Part shown: positions 11,833-19,218 of the stretch, in pieces
How the letters are laid out: the number at the start of each line of letters is the position of its first letter
How positions within the stretch are numbered: the stretch's first letter is position 1
NCBI RefSeq assembly: GCF_018129065.1
Contig: NZ_JAAEDM010000057.1
Span: 1 to 33,638, forward strand
Length of the DNA: 33,638 bases
Source: Neoroseomonas soli
GTDB taxonomy: Bacteria > Pseudomonadota > Alphaproteobacteria > Acetobacterales > Acetobacteraceae
Reading direction: 5' to 3'
Made by a program: the position numbers and the translations under genes
The notes under the pieces: generated by a model
Databases searched by the model: none
Told to the model about the DNA's origin: nothing
What the model saw: only the letters and a program-made list of their open reading frames with translations

Positions 11833-13416
11833 TCAGCGCGCGGCGGGGCGCAGGTCCTGCGCCCGCGTCAGCTCGTCGTTGCGCGCCGTATGCTCGAAGC
11901 CCCGCCGCGTGGCCCAGATGTTGGTCTGGATGTGCAGCGGGACCACGCCGACGTCCTGCATGCCGATGCGCATCGCGTCCACCACCAGCCGCTCGCGCTT
12001 CGCCTCGTCCATCTCCACCAGCGACTGCTCGAGCAGCGTGTCCACCTGCGGGTTGGAATAGCGCCCGCGGTTGGAAGCACCCCAGCCGCGCTCGCGCGAA
12101 ACGGTGGCGAGGATGTTGCGCAGCGGATGCGACCCGTCCGGGTTCGAGCCCCAGCCGATCAGGAAGGCGGAGTATTCCGTGCGGCCGGCGCGGCCGACGA
12201 AGGTGGTCCAGGGCTGCGCCTCCACCGCCGTGCGCACGCCGATGCGCGTCCACATCTGGCCGATCGCCTGGATGATGCGCGAATCGTTGATGTAGCGGTC
12301 GTTCGGCCCGTTCAGCTGGATGCGGAAGCCGTTCGGGTAGCCGGCCTCGGTCAGCAGGCGCTTCGCGCCCTCCGGGTCGTAGGCCGGCGCCGGCAGGTCG
12401 GACACGAAGCCGAACACGCCTTCCGGCAGGAACTGGTTGGCCGGCACCGCCGCACCTTCCATGATGCGGTCGACGATCGCGCGGCGGTCGATCGCCATCG
12501 ACAGCGCGCGGCGCACCCGCACATCCTGCAGCGGGTTGCGGCCCAGCGGCTGGCCGTCATTGCCGGTGATGAAGGGCGAGTTCTCGTTCGCCTGGCGCAG
12601 GTGGTCGAGGCCGAGGAAGATCAGCCGCAGCCCCACCGTCTCGGACAGCCGCACGCGCTGGTCCTGGCGCATCTTCGCGAGATCCGAGGTCGGCACCTGG
12701 TCGATCAGGTCCACGTCGCCGGCGAGCAGCGCCGCGGTGCGCGCCGCGTCGTTGGTGATCATGCGGTAGTTGATGCGCTGGAACGGGGCGCGCTCACCCC
12801 AGTAGCCGTCGAAGCGCTCGAATTCGATACGGTCGCCGTTGCGGTGCGACACGGCACGATAGGGGCCGGTGCCGGCGGCGGCGCGCAGCGCGTTGAAGTC
12901 CTCGGTCGTCGCGTTCTCCACCGTCTGGCGGTCGACGATGCGGACGTTCGTCATGTCGAGCGGCAGCAGCGGATAGGGCTGCGCGGTGTGGAAGCGTATC
13001 GTCAGCGGATCGACGATCTCCACCCGCGTCAGCGGGCGCGAATAGACCGCGAAGGAGGACGGGCTGTTCGGCACGTTCGGCAGGCGCTGGAGCGTGAAGG
13101 CCACGTCCTCGGCCGTGAAGGCATTGCCGTTGTGGAAGCGCACGTTCGGCCGCAGGCGGAATTCCCACACCGTCGGCTCCACCACCCGCCATTCCGTCGC
13201 GAGGCCGGGAATGTTGCGCGCCTGCGCGTCGGTGTTCACCAGCTTGTCGAAGATGGTGTCGGCCACCGCGTTGTTTGGCGAGAGCTGGTGGTAATGCGGA
13301 TCGATCGACGTGACCGGCGCGCCGACCGCGATGGTCGCGGTCTGCGCCGAGGCGCCCGCGCTCACCGCCAATGCCGGCGCGGCCGCGAGAAGCGCGGCCT
13401 TCAGGACTTTCTTCAT
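11833..13416 (-). CDS. ABC transporter substrate-binding protein, family 5
   Basis: A 527-residue periplasmic binding protein of the SBP_bac_5 family. Residues 1-24 form a Sec signal peptide (MKKVLKAALLAAAPALAVSAGASA, cleavage expected after ASA). The mature protein has the family features: TSIDPHY, GLATEWR, WEFRLRPNVRFHNG, FTAEDVAFTL, GTGPYR, DVRVRRALSMAIDR and the C-terminal PLHIQTNIWATRRG. It is the first gene of the importer operon and delivers substrate to the DppB/DppC-like permease. A clear paralogue diverges from it 100 bp away. The substrate is unknown; family 5 members bind peptides, nickel, opines and others. Confidence 0.92.
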   Translation of the reverse strand: MKKVLKAALLAAAPALAVSAGASAQTATIAVGAPVTSIDPHYHQLSPNNAVADTIFDKLVNTDAQARNIPGLATEWRVVEPTVWEFRLRPNVRFHNGNAFTAEDVAFTLQRLPNVPNSPSSFAVYSRPLTRVEIVDPLTIRFHTAQPYPLLPLDMTNVRIVDRQTVENATTEDFNALRAAAGTGPYRAVSHRNGDRIEFERFDGYWGERAPFQRINYRMITNDAARTAALLAGDVDLIDQVPTSDLAKMRQDQRVRLSETVGLRLIFLGLDHLRQANENSPFITGNDGQPLGRNPLQDVRVRRALSMAIDRRAIVDRIMEGAAVPANQFLPEGVFGFVSDLPAPAYDPEGAKRLLTEAGYPNGFRIQLNGPNDRYINDSRIIQAIGQMWTRIGVRTAVEAQPWTTFVGRAGRTEYSAFLIGWGSNPDGSHPLRNILATVSRERGWGASNRGRYSNPQVDTLLEQSLVEMDEAKRERLVVDAMRIGMQDVGVVPLHIQTNIWATRRGFEHTARNDELTRAQDLRPAAR

Positions 13417-13516: not shown

Positions 13517-15115
13517 ATGTCGAACCCGACGAGACCCGCCCTACCCCGCCGCGGCGGCCTGCTGCTGGCCCTTGCCGTGCTGCCCGCCCTGGCGGCGCCG
13601 GCGGCCGCGCAGAACCTCAGCATCGGCATCGGCGGCGCGATGACCTCGGTCGACCCGCACTTCTACAATGCGACCCCGAACAATTCCCTCTCGATGCACC
13701 TCTTCGACCGCCTGGTCGAGCGCGACGCGAATGCGCGGCCCATCCCCGGCCTCGCCACCGAATGGCGCGCCGTCTCCGACACCGTCTGGGAATTCAAGCT
13801 GCGCCCGGGCGTGAAGTGGCATGACGGGCGGGACTTCACCGCCGACGACGTCGCCTTCACCATCGAGCGCACGCCCAACGTGCCGAACAGCCCGGCCAGC
13901 TTCGCCGGCTTCCTGCGCGCCATCCGCAGCGTCGAGGTGGTGGACCCGCTGACCATCCGTTTCCACACGGCCGCGCCGCACCCGCTGCTGCCGGTCGAAC
14001 TCGCCTCCGTCGCCATCATTTCCCGCCATGTCGGCACCGGCGCCTCGACCGAGGACTACAATGCCGGCCGCGCGGCGATCGGCACCGGCCCCTACCGCTT
14101 CGTGTCCCACACGCCGAACGACCGGACGGAACTGGCCCGCAACGACGCCTATTGGGGCGGGCGCGAGCCGTGGGAGCGCGTCTCCTACCGCTTCATCGGC
14201 AACGACACGGCGCGCACCGCGGCGATGATCGCCGGCGACGTGGACATGATCGACCAGGTCGCCTCCACCGACCTCGCCCGCCTGCGCCGCGACCAGCGGG
14301 TCCAGGTCAGTGAGGTCCAGGGCCTGCGGGTGATCTACCTCCAGCACGACTACAGCCGGCGGGAGAACCCGATCCACGTCACCGACAATGACGGCAAGCC
14401 CCTGGCGACGAACCCCTTCCTCGACCTGCGGGTGCGCCGGGCGCTGACCATGTCCATCGACCGCGCCGCCCTGGCCCAGCGCATCATGGAAGGCACCGCC
14501 CAGCCGAACGGCCAGTGGCTGCCGGAGGGCGTCTATTCCTACAATCCCGCCGTGCCGGTGCCCCGCTACGATCCGGACGGGGCGAAGCGCCTGCTGGCCG
14601 AAGCCGGCTTCCCCAACGGCTTCCGCCTGACGCTGCATACGCCGAACGACCGCTACCCCAACGACGCCCGCACCGCCCAGGCGGTGGCGCAGATGTGGTC
14701 GCGCATCGGCGTGCGCACGCAGGTCGAGGCGCTGCCCTGGGCCGCCTTCGCCGCCCGCGCCGCGCGCCAGGAGTTCGGCACCCGCCTGACCGGCTGGGGC
14801 AGCGTGACCGGCGAGGCGTCCTACGCCCTCGTGAACATCATCGGCACCTTCAACCGCGAGGCGCGGACGGGCGCGGCGAACCAGGGGCGTTATTCGAACC
14901 CTGCGCTCGATGCGCTGACGGCGCGCGCGGCCTCCACGCTCGACAACGGGGCGCGCGAGCGGCTGCTGCAGGAAGCGGTGAAGATGGCGATGGACGACGT
15001 CGCGATCATGCCGCTCTTCCAGATCGTCAACATCTGGGCGGTGCGGCGCGGCCTGAGCCATGAGCCGCGCATGGACGAGCGGACGCTCGCGATGGGCGTG
15101 CGCCCGGCGAACTGA
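13517..15115 (+). CDS. ABC transporter substrate-binding protein, family 5 (orphan paralogue)
   Basis: A 532-residue SBP_bac_5 protein with a signal peptide at about residues 1-31 (twin Arg in ALPRRGGLLLALAV, ending AAPAAAQ). It parallels the importer's own binding protein throughout: TSVDPHFYNATPNNS against TSIDPHYHQLSPNNA, FTADDVAFTIERTPNVPNSPASF against FTAEDVAFTLQRLPNVPNSPSSF, and VRRALTMSIDR against VRRALSMAIDR. GGAG precedes ATG 13517. No permease or ATPase follows it; a strong hairpin does. It probably shares the adjacent importer as a second specificity, or acts alone as a sensor or chaperone; the shared use is inference. Confidence 0.9.
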   Translation: MSNPTRPALPRRGGLLLALAVLPALAAPAAAQNLSIGIGGAMTSVDPHFYNATPNNSLSMHLFDRLVERDANARPIPGLATEWRAVSDTVWEFKLRPGVKWHDGRDFTADDVAFTIERTPNVPNSPASFAGFLRAIRSVEVVDPLTIRFHTAAPHPLLPVELASVAIISRHVGTGASTEDYNAGRAAIGTGPYRFVSHTPNDRTELARNDAYWGGREPWERVSYRFIGNDTARTAAMIAGDVDMIDQVASTDLARLRRDQRVQVSEVQGLRVIYLQHDYSRRENPIHVTDNDGKPLATNPFLDLRVRRALTMSIDRAALAQRIMEGTAQPNGQWLPEGVYSYNPAVPVPRYDPDGAKRLLAEAGFPNGFRLTLHTPNDRYPNDARTAQAVAQMWSRIGVRTQVEALPWAAFAARAARQEFGTRLTGWGSVTGEASYALVNIIGTFNREARTGAANQGRYSNPALDALTARAASTLDNGARERLLQEAVKMAMDDVAIMPLFQIVNIWAVRRGLSHEPRMDERTLAMGVRPAN

Positions 15116-15120
15116 TGCGC

Positions 15121-15149
15121 CGCGCGTGAAGGCCCGGCCTTCACGCGCG
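15121..15149 (+). terminator. Strong stem-loop downstream of the orphan binding protein
   Basis: Six bases after the stop at 15115 there is a perfect inverted repeat with 13-14 bp arms (CGCGCGTGAAGGCC / GGCCTTCACGCGCG) around a single base, so the loop must open by a few pairs. No T-tract follows. It likely acts as a transcript end or RNA-stabilising structure. Confidence 0.55.
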
Positions 15150-15162
15150 CGCCCTGGACGGC

Positions 15163-15190
15163 GCCGGCGGCCATACGGCCGGCCGCCGGC
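15163..15190. repeat. Inverted repeat in the convergent gap
   Basis: A perfect 10-bp inverted repeat (GCCGGCGGCC / GGCCGCCGGC) with an 8-base loop, 14 bp past the strong hairpin. It lies between the convergent binding-protein gene and the guanidinium exporter. The rest of the 210-bp gap (to 15325) shows no gene that I can recognise. Confidence 0.45.
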
Positions 15191-15325
15191 GTGTGTTCTC
15201 CCGCCCTGTTGCCGCCCGCGGCGATCGACGCCCCCGCCACCGCTTGGATCGGACGCCGTCCATCCGCCTCACCGGACTACCGGCCCGCTACGCCGGCGGG
15301 AGGCCAGGACATGGGGCCGCCTGGA

Positions 15326-15646
15326 TCAGACCGGGGCGGTGAGCTTCAGCCCGACGATCCCGGCCATGATCAGCCCGACGCAGGCGAGGCGGATTGCCGT
15401 CGCCGCTTCCCCGAACAGCACGATGCCGAGCAGCACGGTGCCGACCGTTCCGATGCCCGTCCACACCGCATAGGCGGTGCCGAGCGGCAGCGTGCGCAGG
15501 GCGAGCCCCAGCAGCCCGAGGCTGACGATCATGCTGAGCACCGTCAGCGCGCTCGGCAGCGGGCGGGTGAAGCCCTCGGTGTATTTCAGGCCCACGGCCC
15601 AGCCGATTTCGGTGAGTCCCGCGGCAAAGAGGTAGATCCAGCCCAT
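15326..15646 (-). CDS. gdx: Guanidinium exporter, SMR family (SugE/Gdx)
   Basis: A 106-residue four-helix small multidrug resistance protein. The sequence follows the SugE/Gdx subtype closely: [19 protein letters not shown] with the essential Glu13 in helix 1, [31 protein letters not shown], and the C-terminal AGIVGLKL. Gdx proteins are dual-topology dimers that export guanidinium in exchange for protons. I use ATG 15646; a GTG one codon upstream is possible. AAAGGA about ten bases before the start is the ribosome site. The leader holds two ACGR-loop hairpins typical of the guanidine-II riboswitch, which independently supports guanidinium as the substrate. The gene lies downstream of accC on the same strand. 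Confidence 0.93.
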
Positions 15647-15670
15647 CACAGGTGTCCTTTCGGTGCCTGT

Positions 15671-15722
15671 GGCGGGGCCGTCCCCACCGTTTCGGGTGAT
15701 GCGCCGGGGTCGTCCCCGGCGC
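15671..15722 (-). ncRNA. Guanidine-II (mini-ykkC) riboswitch upstream of the exporter
   Basis: On the minus strand two hairpins precede the exporter gene. P1 (15722-15701) is a perfect 9-bp stem, GCGCCGGGG / CCCCGGCGC, closed by the loop ACGA. P2 (15688-15671) is a 7-bp stem, GGTGGGG / CCCCGCC with one G-U pair, closed by the loop ACGG. A 12-base linker separates them, and P2 ends 24 bases before the ATG, near the Shine-Dalgarno. Two G/C-closed stem-loops with ACGR tetraloops are the definition of mini-ykkC, the guanidine-II riboswitch; ligand binding joins the two loops and frees the ribosome site. P1 begins seven bases past the accC stop. The structure is read directly; ligand binding is known for the class. 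Confidence 0.9.
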
Positions 15723-15729
15723 CGCCTGC

Positions 15730-17076
15730 CTATTTCTGCCGCTCGGCGACGAAACGCTCGAGCCAGTGGATGGTGTAGTCGCCGGATTGGAATTCCGGGT
15801 CCTCCATCACCGCCTGGTGCAAGGGCAGCGTCGTGCGGATGCCCGCCACCACCATCTCCGCCAGCGCGCGGCGCATGCGGCTGATCGCGGCGGTGCGCGT
15901 CGGCGCGTGCACCACCAGCTTCGCCACCAGGCTGTCGTAGTGCGGCGGCACGGTGTAGCCGGAATAGAGCGCACTATCGACGCGCACGCCGAGGCCACCC
16001 GGCGCGTGATAGGTGTTCACGCGGCCGGGGCTCGGCGTGAAGGTCTCGGGGTCCTCGGCGGTGATGCGGCATTCGATCGCATGGCCGCGGAACTGGATGT
16101 CGTTCTGCGCGTAGCCGAGCGGCTCGCCCGCGGCGATGCGGATCTGCTCCTTCACCAGGTCGATGCCGCAGACCATCTCGGTCACCGGATGCTCGACCTG
16201 CAGGCGGGTGTTCATCTCGATGAAGGCGAATTGCCCGTCCTGCCAGAGGAACTCGAGCGTGCCCGCATTGCGGTAGCCGAGCTGCGCCAGCGCCGTGGTC
16301 ACGCGCGACCCGAGCGCCTCGCGGTCCGCCGCGGTCAGCACCGGGCTGCCCGCTTCCTCGACCAGCTTCTGGTGGCGGCGCTGCAGCGAGCAGTCGCGCT
16401 CGCCGAAATGCACGACATTGCCGTGCGTGTCGGCCAGCACCTGCAGCTCGATGTGCCGCGGGCGGTCGAGGTACTTCTCCATGTAGACGCTGTCGTCGCC
16501 GAAGGCCGCCTTGGCCTCGGCGCGCGCGACGCGCCACGCCTCCTCCAGCTCGTCGGCCGAGCGCGCCACCTTCATGCCGCGCCCGCCGCCGCCGGCAGCC
16601 GCCTTGATCAGCACCGGGTACTTGATCTCGTCGGCGATCGCGCGCGCTTCCTCGTAGGAGTCCAGCGCGCCGGGCGAACCGGGCACCAGCGGCACGTCGA
16701 GCCGGCGCATCGCGTCCTTCGCCGCGATCTTGTCGCCCATCATGCGGATGTGGTCCGGCGAGGGGCCGATGAACTTCAGCCCGTGCGCCTCCACCATTTC
16801 CGCGAAGCGCGCGTTCTCGGACAGGAAGCCGTAGCCCGGATGCACCGCATCCGCGCCGGTGATGGTCGCGGCGGACAGGATGGCGGCGGTGTTGAGGTAG
16901 GATTCGCGCGCATTCGGCGGGCCGATGCACACGCTCTCGTCCGCGAGGCGCACATGCATCGCCGTAGCGTCGGCCGTGGAATGCACGGCGACAGTGCGGA
17001 TGCCCATCTCCTGGCAGGCGCGATGGACGCGGAGCGCGATCTCGCCGCGGTTCGCGATCAGGACCTTGCCGAACAT
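15730..17076 (-). CDS. accC: Biotin carboxylase subunit of acetyl-CoA carboxylase
   Basis: A 448-residue biotin carboxylase (EC 6.3.4.14), the ATP-grasp enzyme that carboxylates the biotin on AccB for malonyl-CoA synthesis. It starts [17 protein letters not shown]. It carries [12 protein letters not shown], the Gly-rich ATP lid [12 protein letters not shown], the catalytic region [17 protein letters not shown], and [16 protein letters not shown]. Length is normal. It follows accB by 85 bp in the alphaproteobacterial aroQ-accB-accC order. That gap has GGCCGG/CCGGCC-type inverted repeats but no gene. The guanidine riboswitch begins right after its stop, so readthrough into the exporter is possible. 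Confidence 0.96.
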
Positions 17077-17161
17077 CAGCCGCGCCCCGCGCCGCGCTGC
17101 GCCGCGCGCCAGCCGGCCGATTCGGGCTTCCGGGCTTCCGGCGCTCCGCTCATCAGGCCGC

Positions 17162-17623
17162 TCACTCGATGATCATCAGCGGCTCGCCGTATTCGACCGG
17201 CATGCCGCTCTCGACCAGGATCCGCGCCACGGTGCCCGCGCGCGTCGCCTTGATCTGGTTGAAGGTCTTCATCGCCTCGATCAGCAGCAGGGTCTGGCCC
17301 TGCACGACCTTGGACCCGACGCCGACGAAGGGCGCCGCGCCCGGCTCGGGCGAGAGGTAGGCGACGCCCACCATGGGGCTGGTCACCGCGCCCGGATGGT
17401 CGGCGTCCGCCGCTTCCGGCGCCGCGACAGCGACCGGCGCCGCGGCCGCGGGGGCGGCGACCGCCACCTGCGCGACGGCCGGCGCGGCGATCACGGACTG
17501 GCGCACCACGCGCAGGCGGGACTCGCCGTCCACCAACTCGATTTCCGTGAGGTCCGTCTCGCGCAGGATCTGCGCGAGTTCGCGGATGGCCGCGGCGTCG
17601 AACTCGATGAAGTTGCCCATCAT
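17162..17623 (-). CDS. accB: Biotin carboxyl carrier protein of acetyl-CoA carboxylase
   Basis: A 153-residue BCCP. Residues 1-45 are the N-terminal domain that contacts AccC (FIEFDAAAIRELAQIL, LTEIELVDGESRLRVVR). An Ala/Val/Pro-rich flexible linker spans about residues 45-72, and the biotinyl domain ends the protein. The biotin attachment motif is IEAMKTFN with Lys119, where Thr replaces the common Met/Leu after Lys. ATG 17623 overlaps the aroQ stop by four bases; a second ATG follows directly. It carries biotin between AccC and the carboxyltransferase, whose genes are not in the window. Confidence 0.95.
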   Translation of the reverse strand: MMGNFIEFDAAAIRELAQILRETDLTEIELVDGESRLRVVRQSVIAAPAVAQVAVAAPAAAAPVAVAAPEAADADHPGAVTSPMVGVAYLSPEPGAAPFVGVGSKVVQGQTLLLIEAMKTFNQIKATRAGTVARILVESGMPVEYGEPLMIIE

Positions 17624-18072
17624 TCCTCGTCCTGCTCGACCAGCTCGGCCATGGCGCGCATCGCCAGCGCGTAGCCCGCGACACCGAGGCCGCAGATCAC
17701 GCCGGTCGCCGCCTTGGACACGTAGCTGTGGTGCCGGAATTCCTCCCGGCGGTGGATGTTGGTGATATGCACCTCGATCACCGGCAGCTCGGTCAGCAGC
17801 AGCGCGTCGAGCAGCGCGATCGAAGTGGTCGTGTAGCCTGCCGGATTGATGATGATGCCGGCGGCGCGGCCACGGCATTCCTGCACCCAGGTCACCAGTT
17901 CGCCCTCGGAATTGGTCTGGCGGAAATCGATGGCCAGGCCGAATTCCTCCGCCGCCTCGGCGCAGAGCGCCTCGACGTCGTCGAGCGTGGCGATGCCGTA
18001 CTTCTCCGGCTCGCGCACGCCGAGCATGTTGAGGTTCGGTCCGTTGAGGACCGCGATCAGGGGCGGGGTCAC
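17620..18072 (-). CDS. aroQ: Type II 3-dehydroquinate dehydratase
   Basis: A 150-residue type II dehydroquinase (EC 4.2.1.10), a dodecameric cytosolic enzyme of the shikimate pathway. Motifs appear in order: LNGPNLNMLGVREPEKYG with catalytic Tyr25 and Arg20, FRQTNSEGELVTW, IIINPAGYTTTS, and VIEVHITNIHRREEFRHHS with catalytic His102. GTG 18072 gives the standard N-terminus; there is no clear Shine-Dalgarno. The gene is the head of the aroQ-accB-accC operon, with a 4-bp overlap to accB, and diverges from thiS across 132 bp in which I see no riboswitch. Confidence 0.95.
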   Translation of the reverse strand: MTPPLIAVLNGPNLNMLGVREPEKYGIATLDDVEALCAEAAEEFGLAIDFRQTNSEGELVTWVQECRGRAAGIIINPAGYTTTSIALLDALLLTELPVIEVHITNIHRREEFRHHSYVSKAATGVICGLGVAGYALAMRAMAELVEQDEE

Positions 18073-18204
18073 GGGCGTATCCCGAATTTCTGGGGCGGAA
18101 GGGGCTAGCACGGGGGGTTTCCAGGGGGCAAGCGGGGGCCTCGGCAGCCATGCGCCACCCCCGGCTTGCAGTGCCCCCTGCCCTTCGCCACATTCCGCCA
18201 CGAC

Positions 18205-18417
18205 ATGACCGACCGGATCACCATCACCGTGAACGGCGAAGCGCGGAACGTCGCCTCGGGCGACACCGTCGCCCGCCTGCTCGCCGCCATCGGCCTCGAC
18301 ACGCGCAAGGTCGCGGTGGAGAGGAACGAGGAGATCGTCCCCCGCTCCATCTACGCCGAGGTGGCGCTCGCTGCCGGCGACCGGCTCGAGATCGTGCACT
18401 TCATCGGCGGAGGCTGA
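18205..18417 (+). CDS. thiS: Thiamine sulfur carrier protein ThiS
   Basis: A 70-residue ubiquitin-like sulfur carrier. It has the ThiS pattern ITVNGEARNVASGDTVARLL, then VAVERNEEIVPRSIYAEVAL, and the C-terminal EIVHFIGGG whose terminal Gly-Gly is adenylated and converted to a thiocarboxylate. ATG 18205 is chosen because the upstream extension (to 18166) lacks family sequence. The thiG ATG follows three bases after the stop, with a GGAGG ribosome site inside the thiS end, so the two are co-expressed. No TPP riboswitch is evident in the 132-bp leader. Confidence 0.92.
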   Translation: MTDRITITVNGEARNVASGDTVARLLAAIGLDTRKVAVERNEEIVPRSIYAEVALAAGDRLEIVHFIGGG

Positions 18418-18420
18418 ATC

Positions 18421-19218
18421 ATGGACGGAACCCCCGCCACCACCGGCGAGGACACCTGGGAGGTCGCGGGCCGCCGCTTCCGGTCCCGCCTCATCGTCGG
18501 CACGGGGCGCTACAAGTCGCTCGAGGAGACCGCGGAGGCCATCGAGGCCTCGGGCGCGGAGATCGTCACCGTCGCGGTGCGGCGGGTGAACCTTTCCGAC
18601 CCCAACGCGCCGATGCTGCAGGATTTCGTCTCGCCCAAGCGCTACACCTACCTGCCCAACACCGCCGGCTGCCATACCGCCAGCGACGCCGTGCGGACGC
18701 TGCGCCTGGCGCGCGAGGCCGGCGGCTGGAACCTCGTGAAGCTCGAGGTGCTGGGGCCGCCGCCCTACCTCTACCCGGACATGGCCGGCACGCTCGAAGC
18801 CGCCGAGGCGCTCATCAAGGACGGCTTCGAGGTCATGGTCTATTGCGCCGACGACCCGGTCGCGGCGAAGAAGCTCGAGGACATGGGCTGCGTCGCCATC
18901 ATGCCGCTCGGCGCGCCGATCGGCTCGGGACTCGGCCTGACCAACCCCTTCATGATCCGCTCCATCAAGCAGCAGGCGAAGGTGCCGGTGCTGGTGGATG
19001 CCGGGATCGGCACGGCCTCGGACGCGGCCAAGGCGATGGAACTCGGCTGCGACGCGGTGCTGCTGAATTCCGCCATCGCCCACGCCAAGGACCCGGTCCG
19101 CATGGCGCGCGCGATGAAATCCGCGGTGGAGGCGGGGCGGGATGCCTTCCTGGCCGGGCGGATGCCGTGGAACTACTCGGCCGATGCGTCGAGCCCGATG
19201 ACGGGGCTGATCCGGTAG
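18421..19218 (+). CDS. thiG: Thiazole synthase ThiG
   Basis: A 265-residue thiazole synthase. It condenses deoxyxylulose phosphate, dehydroglycine and the ThiS thiocarboxylate to the thiazole phosphate of thiamine. It is a TIM-barrel protein with the Schiff-base lysine in [10 protein letters not shown] (Lys107). It also has [25 protein letters not shown], and the phosphate-binding [15 protein letters not shown] and [29 protein letters not shown] segments. A glycine oxidase or ThiH partner is not next to it. The stop is followed at once by palindromic repeats. Confidence 0.95.

Follow-up and report, generated by a model that had tools for sequence, protein, structure and literature searches.

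Guanidine-II riboswitches, also known as mini-ykkC, are described as translational switches which promote initiation (PMC12186494). The members of the mini-ykkC regulon include multidrug transporters as well as urea and agmatine genes, and accC is not mentioned there (PMC3766115). Three ideas about the OFF state have been put forward. For E. coli an anti-Shine-Dalgarno sequence within the linker is described (PMC9094411, PMC9300104). In P. aeruginosa the OFF state is ascribed to a helix with the flanking region, termed P0, and mutants in which P0 is broken are ON (PMC9561414). For Gloeobacter violaceus a stem-loop was proposed that overlaps P2 and the ribosome-binding site and is mutually exclusive with the folded aptamer (PMC5486947). 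On the side of the exporter, E13, W16, S42, Y59 and W62 are described as guanidinium-site residues of Gdx-Clo, with W16 being conserved in Gdx and not in Qac proteins, whose subtype carries Gly or Ala instead (PMC7695847). Our literature searches returned no paper in which 'guanidine riboswitch' and 'accC' occur together, and searches with Acetobacteraceae names gave neither mini-ykkC nor guanidine-II among the matches listed.

The stretch analysed here, referred to as the window, comprises 33,638 nt of Neoroseomonas soli (assembly GCF_018129065.1, 5.24 Mb; contig NZ_JAAEDM010000057.1, positions 1-33,638). It contains a genuine and ordinary guanidine-II/gdx unit, i.e. known parts in their expected pairing. 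The elements of this unit are:

15701..15722, minus strand: P1 hairpin of 9 bp, GCGCCGGGG-ACGA-CCCCGGCGC, loop ACGA (sequence reading and RF01068 alignment)
15689..15700, minus strand: linker of 12 nt, variable among congeners (sequence reading)
15671..15688, minus strand: P2 hairpin, GGUGGGG-ACGG-CCCCGCC, 7 bp including one U.G (sequence reading and RF01068 alignment)
15647..15671, minus strand: candidate hairpin P3 (CACAGG/CCUGUG), with the Shine-Dalgarno sequence inside and the ATG directly behind it (folds and pair counts)
15642..15676, minus strand: candidate OFF helix, in which the start codon and codon 2 are bound by the P2 3' arm (folding, with p 0.027 against shuffles)
15655..15660, minus strand: Shine-Dalgarno-like AAAGGA, 8 nt before the ATG (sequence reading)
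15326..15646, minus strand: gdx, predicted gdx/sugE-type SMR guanidinium exporter of 106 aa, start ATG (profile and structure matches)

The Rfam covariance model RF01068 (guanidine-II, mini-ykkC) was evaluated using cmscan. It matches 15673-15721 on the minus strand over the full model (1-48) with E values of 5.6e-7 for the whole window and 1.3e-8 for 801 bases, and is the sole gathering-score match inside the window. Other guanidine riboswitch classes in Rfam give no gathering-score match in the window, and tRNA or tmRNA genes are not found there by ARAGORN. Within its own genome RF01068 is matched once at E <= 0.001, namely by this element, while Guanidine-I (RF00442) has 0 matches. As a control of the genome search, 14 well-known genomes were scanned, of which two, E. 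coli and Caulobacter, gave an RF01068 match. Chance hairpins are ruled out by the E value over the window together with the single match in the genome. The element exceeds the curated cut-off, consists of two GC-rich hairpins with ACGR loops joined by a linker, and has a SugE/Gdx-type SMR gene downstream of P2, the spacer between the end of P2 and the gdx ATG being 24 nt.

The product of gdx matches PF00893 (SMR family) with 98.6 bits (cut-off 23.7) and the SugE equivalog NF008512 with 129.6 bits (cut-off 126). Its closest solved relatives are 6wk5 (E 7.3e-30) and 8vxu (4e-29), EmrE being far behind (4.5e-11). We take PDB entry 6wk5 to be Gdx-Clo, the entry record itself stating the SMR family. 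The alignment to 6wk5 is gapless over residues 1-104 and all five residues of the guanidinium site, E13, W16, S42, Y59 and W62, are kept. The likeness to Gdx-Clo, a guanidinium/proton antiporter, is one of sequence and lies in the gapless alignment and the site residues. As a member of the Gdx subtype the protein would be expected to exchange guanidinium for 2 H+. In the mechanical ORF list gdx starts three bases earlier, at a GTG. Since the congener G018 (L007) has GTG at the ATG codon of the window and GCG just before, we consider the ATG as the better start.

Most of this had been anticipated by the first-pass annotation. The two minus-strand hairpins with ACGA and ACGG loops, the 12-base linker and their coordinates proved exact to the base. 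P1 had been placed seven bases past the accC stop, and indeed the stop codon TAG (15732-15730) is followed by 7 nt before P1 begins at 15722. The covariance model, named there as a check of the mini-ykkC identity, was passed widely (49.1 bits, with 32 as the gathering score), and the assignment of the downstream gene to the Gdx-type SMR proteins is borne out by NF008512, the match to 6wk5 and the five kept residues.

The unit is flanked by the following features:

15730..17076, minus strand: accC, acetyl-CoA carboxylase biotin carboxylase subunit (TIGR00514, 713.3 bits, cut-off 626.5)
17162..17671, minus strand: accB-type biotinyl domain protein (PF00364; coordinates of the stretch searched, not gene limits)
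17620..18108, minus strand: aroQ, type II dehydroquinase (PF01220; coordinates of the stretch searched, not gene limits)
13517-15115, plus strand: convergent gene of a family-5 substrate-binding protein, downstream of gdx (ORF list and profile)
15121..15149, no strand assigned: inverted repeat, perfect over 14 bp and with 1 nt separating its arms, just past the end of the convergent substrate-binding-protein gene on the side of gdx

The order aroQ-accB-accC on the minus strand, from 18.1 to 15.7 kb, was confirmed by PF01220, PF00364 and the accC models. We also considered whether accC belongs to a carboxylase of guanidine or urea. This was rejected, as accC scores 713.3 with the acetyl-CoA carboxylase equivalog (cut-off 626.5) and 507.3 with the much longer urea carboxylase model, far short of its cut-off of 1303.85. 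Two plus-strand ORFs (18166-18417 and 18421-19218), presumably thiS and thiG, diverge from the aroQ-accBC genes. At the other side two family-5-type substrate-binding proteins are encoded back to back and divergently at 11833-13416 (minus strand, 527 aa) and 13517-15115 (plus strand, 532 aa). The inverted repeat at 15121..15149 was not scored as a terminator in our scan and may represent a transcript end for gdx and the convergent gene.

In three congeners (G028, G006 and G016) what directly follows the accC stop reads, by eye, as the end of the convergent gene in reverse complement. The same gene end seems to be present beyond a spacer in three of the more distant congeners, L082, L088 and L090. 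The gdx cassette therefore looks like an insertion between two old neighbours, accC and the convergent transporter gene. The earlier wording of a gate at the tail of a fatty-acid operon is right as a description of the location, the gdx unit being directly behind accC, and nothing about this location indicates that guanidine and fatty-acid synthesis are functionally linked. That the placing is unusual holds as well: it is a lineage-specific spot, which recurs in the window and seven congeners.

To place the unit in a wider context, occurrences of RF01068 were counted at several ranks. It is present in 17 of 146 relatives (16 over the cut-off), 23 of 249 members of the family (19), 34 of 299 of the order (30) and 39 of 385 of the class (35), whereby the samples overlap and runs on more than 40 genomes use stricter filters. 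Within the genus an SMR relative at E <= 1e-15 is found in 30 of 35 genomes. Ten of these relatives are located directly behind accC, namely that of the window and nine others with 82-89% identity. accC was found in 33 of the 35 genus genomes and 30 accC loci were read. At the ten loci with an adjoining gdx the riboswitch is present in eight (window included) and missing in two, so the order accC - riboswitch - gdx on one strand is seen in the window and seven congeners. P1 begins 3-9 nt past the accC stop in six of the eight riboswitch loci and about 100 nt past it in the other two. The remaining 20 loci show no adjoining gdx; two among them (L089, L093) end 39 and 225 nt past the stop.

In a tree of accC covering 28 of the 30 loci, all ten gdx carriers fall inside one clade of 16 members (support 100/100), where they are mixed with six non-carriers at open, poorly supported forks. 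This could be read as one gain of gdx and several losses within the clade. In the two congeners without a riboswitch gdx follows accC after 25 nt (G004, L026/L069) and 29 nt (G030, L024/L080). No trace of a riboswitch is seen in the gap of G004, where the best of eight comparisons is equalled by 160 of 500 shuffles. In contrast, the gap of G030 resembles the P3 end of the G018 leader with 3 of 500 shuffles as good, this being the best of eight comparisons with an uncorrected p, the next best giving 20 of 500. Because of this resemblance and a shared fork of G030 and G018 in the accC tree, of modest support (86/81), the riboswitch was likely lost by deletion in G030, and we make no such call for G004. 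By eye, G030 retains a GCAGG...CCUGC hairpin around a Shine-Dalgarno-like sequence.

Riboswitch/gdx cassettes of this kind also occupy other places in the family. Moreover, a P1 directly behind another gene is not unique, as a GC3 heuristic applied to 47 leaders, which yields estimates and not gene calls, suggests a same-strand gene within 60 nt of P1 at eight further loci (L003, L010, L061, L096, L116, L120, L122 and L124). At L106 the ORF behind a guanidine-II element that has, by eye, a P3-like hairpin starts with MGFDVYTVAGAIGSAI and gave no hit with the gdx query. A plasmid-borne sugE of Pseudomonas aeruginosa (CP075839.1, 17526-17868) shows 72.8% identity over 78% of a query reaching from the accC end to gdx, starting from near P2.

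The region between the aptamer and gdx was evaluated for a possible expression platform. The fold of the 91-nt leader is matched or surpassed by only 5 of 200 shuffles. P3 directly follows the aptamer, its first C being the last base of P2. From 70 riboswitch loci 48 gdx leaders were read, and 15 with a P3 of this type were picked by eye, 14 of them distinct. In these 14 leaders 91.4% of the 140 cells of P3 pair, against no more than 52.0% after sliding. Of 500 shuffles, 3 attain the covariation score and 4 the number of cells with both sides changed, whereby the covariation comes mostly from one pair (12-26, GC:7 AU:6) and one of the tested sequences had served to derive the structure. Pairs with a change on both sides (164 of 500) and further pair types (500 of 500) are not above shuffles. 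RNAalifold favours another outer part of P3, consisting of CCA with UGG.

The candidate OFF helix extends P3 by C15676-G15642, C15675-G15643, C15674-G15644 and G15673.U15645, followed by a mismatch (C15672/A15646). With 15 nt of the ORF included, its register moves by one base and the pairing reaches codons 3-4. The extended P3 excludes P2, whereas the short P3 is compatible with it. We therefore use the term exclusive helix for the former. It was assessed by folding the P2 3' arm, the spacer and 9 nt of the ORF against dinucleotide shuffles of the spacer in 44 of the 48 leaders; L098 and L116 (long spacers), L101 (mis-read) and L129 (no start codon there) were dropped. The exclusive helix beats the shuffles (p < 0.05) in 13 of the 44 leaders, seven of which belong to the own genus (7 of 8). 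Taking the median per genus, it does so in 5 of 27 genera (binomial 0.010), or 4 of 26 (0.039) without the own genus. It is therefore consistent in its own lineage and only weakly general.

The predicted energies are mixed. Among structures composed by hand, P1+P2+P3 beats P1 with the extended P3 by 5.0 kcal/mol, other pairs being left out. With 15 nt of the ORF, P2 is open in the predicted MFE structure (-49.5 kcal/mol), and a fold forced to contain P1+P2 is 2.6 kcal/mol less stable. The predicted ligand-free probability of P2 in the eight own-genus leaders ranges from 0.00 to 0.98, five being below 0.2 and three above 0.9. For the window leader folded with 30 nt of the ORF, forcing P1+P2 lifts the openness of the AUG from 0.53 to 0.97. 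With 15 nt it moves from 0.53 to 0.54 only. In the other seven own-genus leaders, likewise with 15 nt, it rises by at most 0.13 and is even lowered in L009 (0.47 to 0.17) and slightly in L006. The openness of the Shine-Dalgarno sequence in the window remains at 0.63. As the energetics are mixed and the openness of the AUG is mostly flat, the toggle between P3 and the start codon is a candidate and not a result. We regard it as a plausible OFF state, to be held tentatively.

A different OFF state would arise if the linker and not the P2 arm paired with the start codon. CAUCAC at the border of P1 and linker (15701-15696) and GUGAUG at the start codon (15649-15644) are complementary, an inverted repeat of 12 nt with 83% is present, and such a pairing would be comparable with the linker anti-Shine-Dalgarno model of E. 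coli (PMC9300104, PMC9094411). However, the 6-nt match is seen by eye besides the window only in L006 (G010) and L010, each with one G.U, and the other own-genus leaders have unrelated linkers (by eye). We thus consider the linker pairing unlikely. Irrespective of the OFF state, the riboswitch family suggests that the element almost certainly responds to guanidinium and does so in the ON direction. A decayed riboswitch, or one with another guanidine-like compound as ligand, could be proposed from the missing element in the two congeners having gdx, and from nothing further. Both ACGR loops and both stems are intact though, the score is well over the cut-off and the guanidinium-site residues are kept in the Gdx protein, which makes this reading highly improbable.

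Concerning the origin of the gdx mRNA, the choice is between read-through from accC and a promoter of its own. A consensus scan, which GC-rich alphaproteobacterial promoters may not fit and thus may escape, detected no sigma-70-like promoter on either strand in 15000-18300. A minus-strand, i.e. coding-strand, terminator is not found in 15000-18300 either, the stretch between accC and gdx included. Moreover, the gaps of only 25 and 29 nt between accC and gdx in G004 and G030 leave little space for an intergenic promoter. Taken together, these findings make read-through from accC the likelier source of the gdx mRNA in the window. A promoter inside the end of accC could nevertheless drive the same riboswitch and exporter, the accC neighbourhood then being a coincidence of insertion. 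Such a promoter would agree with the cassettes sitting elsewhere in the family and with the two congeners in which accC and P1 are about 100 nt apart. The scan gave no promoter match in these two longer gaps. One of them (L008, 1397-1500) contains one weak coding-strand terminator-like match (shuffles mean 0.2), which speaks against read-through at that locus. The same stretch also holds a long hairpin (by eye). At the end of accC, fourfold-site identity in the last 47 codons is 0.59 in the ten gdx carriers (20 sites; overall 0.72) and 0.78 in the six non-carriers (21 sites; overall 0.71). As synonymous identity is lower in carriers, not higher, there is no sign of a conserved element at this end. 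Together with the scan, this led us to reject a conserved promoter at the accC end as the main model, and a promoter of gdx inside accC appears rather unlikely altogether. A riboswitch-exporter unit supplied by read-through is, as a joint claim, the probable reading.

Based on this, the following mechanism can be proposed. The mRNA would most likely be read through from aroQ-accB-accC, such that the message is constant and guanidinium gates translation of the last gene, the guanidine-II riboswitch switching on translation of the exporter Gdx when guanidinium is present. In the absence of ligand the start codon and the codon behind it would be bound by the 3' arm of P2, which lengthens the P3 hairpin around the Shine-Dalgarno sequence. 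Upon binding, kissing of the P1 and P2 loops would keep P2 closed, so that its 3' arm is no longer available and the start codon becomes free. A further-reaching and less likely reading starts from the 7 nt that separate P1 from the accC stop: each accC ribosome would, on termination, cover the P1 5' arm and thereby reset the aptamer. The switch would then sense guanidinium between accC ribosomes. Obtained here are the aptamer, the identity of the gene, its position, the recurrence in the genus and the possibility of P3 and an exclusive helix. The complete picture of a detoxifying exporter, constantly transcribed by an acetyl-CoA carboxylase operon and gated by guanidinium in translation only, with a ribosome-reset aptamer and an OFF state formed by the P2 arm, is unlikely to hold in all its parts.

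The new details are the location behind accC and the possible start-codon hairpin; the riboswitch type itself is known. A textbook riboswitch is confirmed in a new setting, which leaves the knowledge of guanidine biology unchanged. The genus provides natural variants, as the riboswitch is present or missing at one and the same site in different congeners and the distance from the accC stop to P1 varies from 3 to about 100 nt. These variants could help to establish how translational riboswitches operate as part of an operon, and to choose among the published OFF models of guanidine-II.

Compared with the guanidine-II elements of E. coli sugE/gdx and of the P. aeruginosa SMR transporter, as far as described in PMC12186494 and PMC9561414, the window shows the same GC-rich ACGR hairpins and linker before the ribosome-binding site of an exporter gene, but its element sits 7 nt behind accC. 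The candidate OFF helix differs from both the linker anti-Shine-Dalgarno of E. coli and the P0 helix of P. aeruginosa. With the proposal for Gloeobacter violaceus it shares a stem-loop that overlaps P2 and the ribosome-binding site and is exclusive with the aptamer. In contrast to that system, the predicted overlap in the window brings the start codon and codon 2 into pairing with the P2 3' arm, and the smaller P3 tolerates P2. Judged by the predicted folds, the window leader would fit the Gloeobacter violaceus type best among the three published ideas of the OFF state.
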